A stretch of 24,105 nt of DNA, taken from a virus. A model generated the notes under the pieces. It searched no databases. It was given only the letters and a program-made list of their open reading frames with translations, and was not told the DNA's origin. The position numbers and the translations under genes are program-made. This document shows positions 2,660 to 5,202 of the stretch, piece after piece (the stretch's first letter is position 1; each line of letters opens with the position of its first letter). Where the stretch lies: the IMG/VR virus record IMGVR_UViG_3300048836_000178, positions 1 to 24,105 of that record; one strand, given 5' to 3'.

Positions 2660-2817
2660 GCGGGCTTGACCGGCAGCGGTTCCTTGCGCCACTCGCCACG
2701 CCATTCGACGCGGCCGCATTTCGGGCAGCGTTGCGCGTCGCGCACCTCGCGGAGCCCGTCGTCTGGGACTCGGGCGTACTGGGTTTCGGTCATCAGTGCG
2801 GCACAGGAACAGATCAT
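2656..2817 (-). CDS. Tiny CxxC protein, possible zinc ribbon
   Basis: A 53-aa protein if the ATG at 2817 is used, which makes the ATGA overlap with the helicase stop seen elsewhere in this operon. An in-frame ATG at 2793 gives 45 aa. It contains CPKCGRVEWRGEW near the middle, a typical zinc-knuckle half. The longer form adds C3 and C5, which could complete a four-cysteine site and slightly favours that start. A purine-rich GGGGTGGA lies upstream. It ends by overlapping the next gene. No function is recognised; nucleic-acid or protein binding would be usual for such proteins. Confidence 0.6.
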   Translation of the reverse strand: MICSCAALMTETQYARVPDDGLREVRDAQRCPKCGRVEWRGEWRKEPLPVKPA

Positions 2818-3743
2818 CGGAAGTCCACCCCGTAGGCTTGGGCCGGCAGGTACTGAATCGGGCGCTGCATGAACTGTTCCGTGCTGAATTGCCGGTAATG
2901 CCGGTGGAACCAGCCGCCGATATCGCCCGTGGCCCCGGTCCCGTGCCGCTGCTTGCGAATCGAGACCTTGATCGGCTTGCCATTCCCGGCGACGTTGTTT
3001 TCATTTGCGGCCCGTCGCACGAACACGACGTTATCCGCCAGCCGGCCAAGATCCGCCGAGCCGGCCACGTCGTTGATGTCCAGTTCCTGCTCGGCGCTCA
3101 CCAGCTTGCGAGGATGTGCGACCAGGTGGATATGCACCCCGGACAGCCGCGCCGTGGCCGTGACCGCGTTGGCGAAAACCCGCTGCTCCTCGATGTCCTT
3201 GCTGTTCACGTTCAGGCACATCATCGAGTCGATGAAGGCGTGCCGAACGCCCTGCCGGCCCAGCACGCGGACCAATGCCAGAATCTGCTGGTAATCCGCA
3301 AGGCCGACCGCGCACCAGAGTTTCAGGCGGTCCGCAAATTCGTGGACGAACCACTCAAGGTCCGCGACCGAGGGTTCCTCATGGCCGACCGCGCTTTCGC
3401 ACATCCGGCACAGCAGCGAGGCCGGATCTTCCTCGAGGGACGCGAAGAACACGCCCTGCGGCCGCGCGAGCAGATGGCAGGCCAACTGGCGCAACAGGCT
3501 CGTCTTGCCGGTTCCCGGAAATCCGCTCCAGATCGTCACCCCACCGGGAAACAGCCGCAGCTTGTGGCCGTCCGGGTCAATTGGCGTCGTGCTGTAGCCG
3601 ATCTGCTTTTTCCGGTAGGCGTCCGCAATCTGCTCGACGTTCTGCGCCTCCAGATCCATCAACAGGGCTTCGGGACAAACCTCTTTTTCGAGGAATCCGG
3701 GGTCATCCGGCATCAGGAAAATGCCGTTCAGCGTTCCAGCCAC
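2814..3743 (-). CDS. DnaB-type replicative helicase (RecA-fold ATPase)
   Basis: A 309-aa protein with only the RecA-like helicase core. Walker A is GFPGTGKT (residues 74-81), Walker B is FID (170-172), a VAHPRK motif lies near 208-213, and RKQRHGT (263-269) matches the arginine-finger region of DnaB/gp4 helicases. It would unwind DNA at the fork and probably be recruited by the O-like initiator encoded just upstream. It lacks the N-terminal primase-interaction domain of cellular DnaB, so priming must come from elsewhere. The GTG start at 3743 is chosen for its GGGGGA ribosome site 6 bases upstream; it overlaps the preceding gene by 16 bases. Confidence 0.9.
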   Translation of the reverse strand: MAGTLNGIFLMPDDPGFLEKEVCPEALLMDLEAQNVEQIADAYRKKQIGYSTTPIDPDGHKLRLFPGGVTIWSGFPGTGKTSLLRQLACHLLARPQGVFFASLEEDPASLLCRMCESAVGHEEPSVADLEWFVHEFADRLKLWCAVGLADYQQILALVRVLGRQGVRHAFIDSMMCLNVNSKDIEEQRVFANAVTATARLSGVHIHLVAHPRKLVSAEQELDINDVAGSADLGRLADNVVFVRRAANENNVAGNGKPIKVSIRKQRHGTGATGDIGGWFHRHYRQFSTEQFMQRPIQYLPAQAYGVDFR

Positions 3744-4066
3744 GACTCGTCCCCCTTTTCGCATTCCACGCACAACGCGACGAACTCGCCCGCGCACTGA
3801 CACCACGCGCGCATGGTCGCGGGCTTCACGTCGCGCTGATCCATCAGGCGCTTGACCCGCCCCGCCCGCTCGCAGGTTCCTACGTCCAGTCGCACGTCGA
3901 GCCCATCCAGCAGGCGCACCGGCATCGGCTTGCCGGGTTTGTGCAAGATCGAAATGCAGCCCACGTCCCGCATGTTCTTCGCGAGCATCCAGCGATCCGT
4001 GACGTACACCGGCAGCAGCGGCTTCATGCCCTTTCGGCGGACTTCCGCCAGAGCGTCCCAGGTCAT
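3728..4066 (-). CDS. Conserved-looking phage protein between initiator and helicase, function unknown
   Basis: A 112-aa protein starting MTWDALAEVRRKGMKPLLPV. It has a strand-rich middle (PVYVTDRW, CISILHKPGKPMPVRLL) and a cysteine-rich end (WCQCAGEF and LCVEC). Four cysteines in the last third could bind a metal. It lies exactly where lambda-like phages place helicase-loading or accessory replication functions, so a role in loading the helicase is a reasonable guess but not shown. The ATG at 4066 overlaps the initiator stop as ATGA; a GTG two codons earlier also exists. Confidence 0.75.
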   Translation of the reverse strand: MTWDALAEVRRKGMKPLLPVYVTDRWMLAKNMRDVGCISILHKPGKPMPVRLLDGLDVRLDVGTCERAGRVKRLMDQRDVKPATMRAWCQCAGEFVALCVECEKGDESWLER

Positions 4067-4791
4067 ATCCACCGATTACCCCCGGAGCCGTTCGCGAGCT
4101 TGATTCCCGCGTCGATGTGCTGGGCGTCCCGCAGCATCAGTTCGATGCTGTCGTAGACCGTGCCGGTGGCGTTCTTGCCCTGATGGTGCGGGGAGAGCTT
4201 GTAGCCCTCGATGCAGGACCGCAGTGCTTCCTCGGGATAAGTCTTCAGGGCGCGGCGGATGACCTTCCGGCGCTTCTCGTCGAGCTTGGCCTGCGGGTGA
4301 TCGTGGGCCGATTGCCAGTGCTGGAAGACCCGAAACACAGGATCGTCGAGCTTCGGCTCGACAGATACCGTAGGTATCTTCTTCTCTGAGTCTGTATCTG
4401 TATCTGTATCTGTATCTTGTGGCGTTACTTGAGCGTTACTGCAACGTTTCGGTAACGTTTCACGTTGTTTTGCTCGCCAATTCCTGACCCGGCCCGACGA
4501 GTTATCCGACTGAAATTGCCGCTTGTCCCAATTGGCCGGCTGCCAATCCTGGCCGACTACAGCGACCTCCATCAGCCTCCGCTTTGCTTCCGCACCAGAG
4601 GCCGGGTCCAGCCCGAGTGCGTGGCAAATCATGCGGTGCCTAATTTCGTCATTCGGCCATTCGCGGTCGAGGAACCCGGATGCCTTCAGGCAGAGCACCA
4701 TGACGAAGTGGCGCTGATCCTCAAAGGCGAGGCATTGAATAACCGGATCCCCGGCAAACTCGTGGTACATGCGGAACCATGGCAGGCTCAC
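4063..4791 (-). CDS. Lambda O-like replication initiation protein
   Basis: A 242-aa protein. The N-terminal part (about 1-95) opens with LPWFRMYHEFAGDPVIQCL, the pattern of phage replication and DnaT-like proteins with a winged-helix start. A hydrophilic linker contains DTDTDTDTD (126-134). A C-terminal helical domain (about 145-242, ending HIDAGIKLANGSG) likely contacts the helicase. It should recognise the origin and recruit the helicase encoded two genes downstream. The GTG start at 4791 overlaps the previous stop (GTGA). The linker-coding DNA carries regularly spaced repeats described separately, as in lambda, where the origin lies inside gene O. Confidence 0.8.
   Translation of the reverse strand: MSLPWFRMYHEFAGDPVIQCLAFEDQRHFVMVLCLKASGFLDREWPNDEIRHRMICHALGLDPASGAEAKRRLMEVAVVGQDWQPANWDKRQFQSDNSSGRVRNWRAKQRETLPKRCSNAQVTPQDTDTDTDTDSEKKIPTVSVEPKLDDPVFRVFQHWQSAHDHPQAKLDEKRRKVIRRALKTYPEEALRSCIEGYKLSPHHQGKNATGTVYDSIELMLRDAQHIDAGIKLANGSGGNRWI
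4393..4461. repeat. Iteron-like repeats within the initiator gene (candidate replication origin)
   Basis: Two repeat families lie side by side. TGTATC occurs four times in tandem at 4393-4416. Then CGTT(A/T)C occurs at 4423, 4434, 4445 and 4456, exactly 11 bp apart. The first two copies share GCGTTACT and the last two share AACGTTTC. The tract is visibly AT-richer than its surroundings. The 6-bp repeat is explained by Asp-Thr codons, but an 11-bp period is out of frame and cannot come from a protein repeat. Lambda places its O-binding iterons and AT-rich segment in gene O, so an origin here is a strong inference. Confidence 0.6.
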
Positions 4792-4964
4792 GCCACGAGC
4801 CCTCGCTCGCGCTCCATCTCGGCCACGCGCTCGGCGGATCGCCGCAGCACCAGATCGCGCAGCTCGTCCCAGACCCTGCGCCGCTCGGTCGGGGTGCCGA
4901 CCGTCGCGAGGCGCATGGCGGCGAATTCGATCTGGGCCTCGAGTGTCAGGTCTGCGGCGTTCAT
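4788..4964 (-). CDS. 58-aa helical protein between repressor and initiator
   Basis: A short, highly charged, mostly helical protein: MNAADLTLEAQIEFAAMRLA at the N-terminus, a VWDELRDLVLRRSAERV helix and a basic-acidic end (EMERERGLVA). There is no membrane segment or cysteine motif. Its position corresponds to that of cII in lambda, but it is too short and has no clear helix-turn-helix, so no CII function is claimed. It starts with ATG overlapping the repressor stop (ATGA) and ends overlapping the initiator start (GTGA). Confidence 0.65.
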   Translation of the reverse strand: MNAADLTLEAQIEFAAMRLATVGTPTERRRVWDELRDLVLRRSAERVAEMERERGLVA

Positions 4965-5167
4965 GCCGTCGCCTTCGCTTCAGGCAGCACGTAATTCGGC
5001 AGCGGCACGTCGGGCTTGAGCTTGCCGGCGGACAGGCGCTCGAAATGGTATTGCCAGTGCAGCGGCACGTCCTCGCCCCACTGGTAGACGGCCTGCTTGG
5101 AAATCCCGAGCAGACTAGCGATCTTTGTTGCGCCGCCAAAATATGCGATAGCTTCACTGGATTTCAT
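4961..5167 (-). CDS. cro: Cro/YdaS-like helix-turn-helix repressor
   Basis: A 68-aa protein of the P22-Cro type. It opens MKSSEAIAYFGG; then TKIASLLGISKQAVYQW (about residues 14-30) forms the helix-turn-helix, and a short dimerisation tail follows (LHWQYHFERLSAGKL). It probably represses early transcription by binding half-sites in the divergent promoter region just upstream. The ATG at 5167 is preferred although it has no ribosome site. The -10 box ends only 6 bases before it, so the transcript would begin at or next to the AUG. A GTG eight codons earlier would lie over that promoter. It is the first gene of the minus-strand replication-packaging run. Confidence 0.85.
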   Translation of the reverse strand: MKSSEAIAYFGGATKIASLLGISKQAVYQWGEDVPLHWQYHFERLSAGKLKPDVPLPNYVLPEAKATA

Positions 5168-5173
5168 GGGCGC

Positions 5174-5202
5174 AATATAGACCCGCGTCACGGGCCGGTC
5201 AA
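5174..5202 (-). promoter_or_regulatory. Promoter for the repressor/replication run, probably leaderless
   Basis: Read on the minus strand, TTGACC (5202-5197, 5 of 6 consensus) and TATATT (5179-5174, 5 of 6) are separated by exactly 17 bases. Six bases (GCGCCC) follow before the repressor ATG at 5167, so the expected start of transcription falls on or next to the first codon. The -35 box overlaps a GTCAATA half-site, so bound repressor could block it. Confidence 0.75.

Follow-up and report, generated by a model that had tools for sequence, protein, structure and literature searches.

What do the phased repeats in the middle of this phage gene do? The window, 24,105 nucleotides of viral DNA, carries on its (−) strand a gene for a predicted replication initiator whose central codons hold four 11-bp repeats followed by a short hexamer array. 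We consider it very likely that this interval is a phage replication origin located in the linker codons of its own initiator. The N-terminal domain, winged-helix-like and extended by a long basic helix (residues 94–112), would bind the four helically phased 11-bp repeats, or iterons, and the assembled complex would strain and open the adjacent purine-rich (GATACA)n tract, with a hairpin beyond the tract possibly contributing. The C-terminal domain would then deliver the phage’s DnaB-like helicase, so that replication would start here.

Repeats within the initiator gene

The initiator gene lies between genes for a regulator and a replicative helicase.

4961..5191, (−) strand: Cro-like regulator (P22_Cro, 2.7e-20), upstream of the initiator
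4063..4791, (−) strand: replication initiator gene, 242 aa, GTG start at 4791, stop included; assigned from PHROG matches and an AlphaFold model
2814..3806, (−) strand: DnaB-like replicative helicase gene (PF03796, 2.3e-8), downstream of the initiator and in the same direction

The initiator gene is present, identical, in two further contigs. A profile search with its product matched PHROG 16167 (1.1e-14), 10469 (3.2e-9, a DnaD-like helicase loader) and 3926 (1.5e-6), and gave no Pfam family at E <= 0.1, hence no O family, RepA_N or AAA+ match.

A sequence-only reading of the window had described four CGTT(A/T)C elements 11 bp apart beside four TGTATC units. We found all of these where it had placed them, with CGTTAC at 4423-4428 and 4434-4439, CGTTTC at 4445-4450 and 4456-4461, and the TGTATC units at 4393-4416 within the (−) strand 242-aa ORF, and the spacing holds; the iteron unit itself has to be refined, from 6 to 11 bp. 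On the coding strand the order is GTGAAACGTTACC GAAACGTTGCA GTAACGCTCAA GTAACGCCACA A (GATACA)x4 GACTCAGAGAAGAAGATACCTACGGTATCT, with a one-base gap between iterons and tract.

4451..4461, (−) strand: iteron 1, GAAACGTTACC on the coding strand; contains an inverted GTAACG half
4440..4450, (−) strand: iteron 2, GAAACGTTGCA, 11-bp unit
4429..4439, (−) strand: iteron 3, GTAACGCTCAA, 11-bp unit
4418..4428, (−) strand: iteron 4, GTAACGCCACA; its core-to-tract distance is short and nearly constant in relatives
4393..4416, (−) strand: (GATACA)x4 tract, with mostly purines on the coding strand; duplex opening is presumed to occur here
4378..4392, (−) strand: purine-rich continuation after the tract, GACTCAGAGAAGAAG
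4363..4379, no strand assigned: perfect inverted repeat AGATACC-GTA-GGTATCT, a 7-bp hairpin past the tract

The AT-richer character that had been ascribed to this interval was borne out, as by nearest-neighbour energy no other 100 bp of the window is less stable than 4371-4470. The locus has, within an initiator gene, tandem repeats specific to the replicon and next to them a tract that should open easily. The iterons are imperfect (two GAAACG and two GTAACG), and G[TA]AACG occurs 17 times in 24.1 kb on both strands, with five occurrences within 4423-4461. The stem of the hairpin, AGATACC (4363-4379), is similar to the tract unit GATACA and was possibly derived from the tract. In this 24 kb fragment with divergent genes, the turn in GC skew near 6-7 kb tracks gene direction, and GC skew was therefore left unused for origin placement.

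We evaluated the repeats against draws in which the protein was held fixed and synonymous codons were redrawn from the window’s other genes. The observed lag-11 score of 22/28 matches was reached in 3 of 5,000 such draws, and in 0 of 5,000 under uniform codon choice. The window by itself is moderate evidence for iterons, because a cruder score, a four-hexamer chain with at most one mismatch, was reached in 23 of 2,000 draws. The evidence for the tract in the window alone is stronger than that for the iterons: ACA makes up 3.8% of Thr codons in the phage and GAT 30% of Asp codons, and the probability of writing DTDTDTDT as (GAT ACA)x4 under phage codon usage is 1.8e-8.

Conservation among N-domain relatives

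Relatives were sought by the N-terminal domain only; 423 were found and 80 kept, which together with the window formed 40 clusters below 90% identity. The frequencies given for tract and spacing rest on this sample, and a sample gathered by the PDTDTDTD pattern, which is biased towards the tract, was excluded. Two iteron cores lie exactly 11 bp apart in 33 of 40 clusters, close core spacings equal 11 bp in 41 of 46 pairs, and the tract or a purine-rich variant of it was found in 39 of 40 clusters. Two tandem GAKACA copies are missing in about 26 of 65 relatives, most of which have a related purine-rich repeat. Immediately ahead of the tract, cores of a relative’s own type number 3.1 per 50 bp, versus about 0.08 elsewhere. 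Perfect stems of at least 7 bp within 70 nt after the tract were present in 25/99 relatives versus 1–4/99 in control stretches; these stems differ in sequence, and their loops are often TAAC or TAAA.

The family’s N-terminal domains match phrog_3926 in 56/56 members and phrog_10469 in 51/56, while their C-terminal domains vary widely, matching many different other initiator families. The window’s own C-domain recurs in Xanthomonas phage PBR31 with an unrelated N-domain, GATATC repeats and a GAGACA-type tract. This diversity, together with the domain swap in PBR31, suggests that the N-domain and the iterons travel together and appear to move as one module.

An initiator of this kind lacking phased repeats had been named as evidence that would count against an origin here. 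One clear case emerged, a family N-domain without iterons or tract in which another sequence takes the place of the linker (L632, L633); a few others have a different spacing. By eye, the replacement sequence in L632/L633 resembles an HNH endonuclease motif.

In many relatives we also observed a second iteron pair, GTAACGGCGATGTAACGTTACA, again at an 11-bp step, which lies some 230 bp upstream of the tract within the codons of the N-domain. Its synonymous sites are frozen (examples are L567:2600-2655, L568, L577 and L622), and it is not present in the window’s initiator gene.

This second pair bears on the reading that the iterons serve as an operator at which the initiator exerts autoregulation or silencing, with replication starting elsewhere, as it implies that the protein may bind in several places; a Cro-like regulator is also encoded nearby. 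Against an operator, the sites lie inside the gene, at least 300 bp from its start, and next to the DNA of lowest stability in the window. They are followed by a tract and a hairpin in a layout common to unrelated initiators, and comparable in-gene sites are origins in lambda and pSK41 (PMC7466680, PMC5703833). We therefore regard the operator as improbable, although it is the best of the alternatives to an in-gene origin.

A second alternative puts the selection on the peptide: the linker would be kept as a soluble, acidic DTDTDT spacer, and this, together with replication slippage, would account for tract and repeats without any function of the DNA. The array is read far more often in the D-T frame than in any other, tract copy number ranges from 2 to 8 among relatives, and DTDTDT arrays in other codons occur in structural proteins, all of which would fit such a spacer. 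The pattern of codons does not. Across the encoded NVTVTPP, the synonymous sites are nearly fixed (V=GTT 29/29, V=GTA 23/23, T=ACG 28/29, P=CCA 29/29), whereas the same codons are used at 23–28% elsewhere in the same genes, and a GC-rich phage that avoids ACA nevertheless has four in its tract. In some relatives, moreover, the tract DNA is kept in other frames or as 5-bp units (encoding EQIQ or EQNRT), reading ACAGAACAGA or CAGATACAG, as would be expected if it is the DNA and not the peptide that is conserved. A pure peptide repeat is ruled out by the nearly fixed synonymous sites and by a period of 11 bp, which is not a multiple of a codon. The selection on DNA proposed from the window alone was thus upheld, and its expectation that repeats and spacing would persist while the encoded linker drifts agrees with the 33 clusters that keep the 11-bp step. 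These patterns indicate that the repeats are under selection as DNA, and make a linker without DNA function very unlikely.

The initiator protein and the iteron core

The AlphaFold model of the initiator has a confident compact N-domain (about residues 11-90) that is winged-helix-like, and a helical C-domain of lower confidence. Three features of the protein map onto or beside the repeats, and the origin DNA occupies the linker codons.

4456..4512, (−) strand: codons of the long helix, residues 94-112, carrying 99, 102 and 105; from the AlphaFold model and mutual information
4486..4488, (−) strand: V102 codon; within the family this residue varies with the iteron core
4342..4455, (−) strand: linker codons, residues 113-150, low confidence (block pLDDT about 51-70), probably disordered

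A PDB sequence search with the initiator returned no significant match. Nor did a Foldseek search of the PDB with the model, in which matches were mostly wHTH proteins; entries 4pta and 4pt7, named as initiators and taken by us to be RepA_N structures, came at a non-significant E of about 1.

Among 106 relatives with an assignable core, residue 102 follows the core sequence closely. Valine goes with TAACG or AAACG (76/80), threonine and glutamine with TGACG (8/8 and 4/4), serine with CAACG (5/7) and alanine with GAACG (4/5). Residue 102 has the highest corrected mutual information of all N-domain columns (0.76, z 11.6). Position 82 ranks second, followed by 105 and 99, which flank 102 by three residues on the same helix; position 99 is the best column separating TAACG from AAACG. 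When the helix was left out of tree building, the tree showed 26 changes of residue 102; at its well-supported branches, most draws gave agreement in 6/6 independent pairs (median p 0.03, range 0.03-0.22). Because this tree has few columns and weak forks, and the relatives are not independent, we take the residue code as a strong correlation rather than proof.

Given this covariation, it is very probably the initiator that reads the iterons. That a host factor reads them instead is as hard to credit as the linker spacer: the tract does recur in phages and prophages of several phyla, so a conserved host protein may read part of the origin, but the iteron core covaries with one residue of a phage protein, and different N-domains carry different iterons.

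Known origins and recurrence of the layout

Origins inside initiator genes are already known from lambda O and from the RepA_N plasmid pSK41. In lambda and Shiga-toxin phages, the central part of gene O holds the iterons of the origin together with an AT-rich stretch whose purines lie almost entirely on one strand (PMC5043065, PMC7466680). The window shares with lambda (our record L647) the placement of iterons and a purine-asymmetric AT-rich tract mid-gene (PMC7466680, PMC5043065). The iterons of lambda, however, are 18 bp long, start at intervals of 20, 24 and 23 bp and are bound as dimers, whereas those of the window form an 11-bp tandem, and no GATACA array is described for lambda or Shiga-toxin origins. 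With no Pfam O match and no 18-bp iterons 20-24 bp apart in the window, membership of the lambda O family was rejected. The label ‘O-like’ given to the gene earlier is apt for the layout but not for the sequence, which is nearer to DnaD-like loaders (PHROG 10469, 3926, 16167).

In pSK41, four Rep boxes lie centrally in rep, the linker that they encode is dispensable, and the N- and C-terminal domains are structurally DnaD-like (PMC5703833). The N-terminal domain of RepA_N proteins and the origin are swappable as a module, as in pPR9 with its phage-like N-terminal domain (PMC5703833). The window resembles pSK41 in having boxes inside the initiator gene, a DnaD-like initiator and a probable origin at the linker. 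RepA_N membership was rejected, with no Pfam RepA_N match and a non-significant Foldseek result. By analogy, then, the window’s origin would work like those of lambda and pSK41, but without the tested defining features of the lambda O family or RepA_N.

The DnaA-trio, or basal unwinding element, of bacterial oriC likewise places a repeat of short period, close to initiator boxes, where the duplex opens (PMC10797057). GATACA, however, is not the trio 3'-[G/A]AT-5', and the window’s initiator is without an AAA+ match in Pfam; a DnaA-trio origin was rejected on both counts. The window also resembles DnaD-like loaders and replisome organisers of phages (PHROG 10469, Phage_rep_org_N, DUF1376/YdaU). 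The window’s protein matches PHROG 10469 and 3926, and members of these groups have phased iterons and a GATACA/GAGACA tract, while their N-domains and iteron sequences are unlike those of the window’s family. The combination of 11-bp iterons, GATACA/GAGACA tract and hairpin is new to us, as is the residue code; open-licence full texts yielded no mention of the code or of GATACA arrays at phage origins, which is weak evidence of absence.

We scanned viral contigs frame-blind for CAGATACAGATACAGATACAG. Among the matches listed, most were phage initiator and primosomal genes, with 43/80 ORFs matching PHROG 10469 and 28/80 matching PHROG 6451, two sets that may overlap. The initiators with such tracts include DUF1376/YdaU, Phage_rep_org_N and Lin1244-type proteins. 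In a control, DTDTDT arrays with other Thr codons fell mostly in portal, head and other proteins rather than initiators among the matches listed, and on this basis the tract as generic low complexity was rejected. A GAVACA control found GAGACA arrays also within initiators among the matches listed, so that the unit is better written GAKACA, of which GATACA is one form. In bacterial genomes the hexamer array also occurs in DT-rich proteins other than initiators, and the tract by itself therefore does not identify an origin. Long DT-rich arrays in bacterial non-initiator proteins (L445, L453, L467, L503 and others), most of them in mixed codons, form the background for the tract.

Outside the family, a lag-11 score of at least 14/22 was found at 48/59 GAGACA-type and 18/47 GATACA-type loci, while at lags 8 and 13 of the same loci 0–1 reached 14/22; some GATACA-type loci have a 10 bp step. 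The GAGACA-type loci L328-L404 form an initiator family of their own, whose GATATC or GCTAGC iterons follow each other every 11 bp. Genomes in which iterons accompany a tract include those named Pseudomonas, Luteimonas, Pelistega, Delftia, Sphingobium, Methylohalomonas, Lactiplantibacillus and Brevibacillus. Phages of several bacterial phyla share the layout, with different N-domains accompanied by different iterons.

We tentatively propose, with somewhat less than even confidence, that temperate phages of several phyla with unrelated initiators share one origin grammar. It would consist of 11-bp iterons that change along with the initiator, a short spacer, a nearly invariant GATACA/GAGACA tract read single-stranded by a shared factor (host machinery or a common property) and a hairpin, with one helix residue (V, T/Q, S or A) mainly setting specificity in one large family. 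If so, origin sequence would be predictable from the initiator protein. The residue-to-base correlation would serve as a rule for joint change of initiator and origin, and in consequence for which phages are compatible and can exchange modules, and a near-constant tract across unrelated initiators raises the question of its reader. The layout would also let many temperate-phage origins be located by sequence alone, including a candidate for oriJ of the Rac prophage.

The position of oriJ is not given in the papers that we found on it. In E. coli K-12, the linker of the Rac gene ydaU (L648:2620-3477; NC_000913 1421119-1421976) follows the plan seen in the window, with repeats of GTTCAA/TTGAAC type and AATAAAGATACAGATAAAG after them, and this linker stretch, at about 1,421,500-1,421,650, is a candidate for oriJ.
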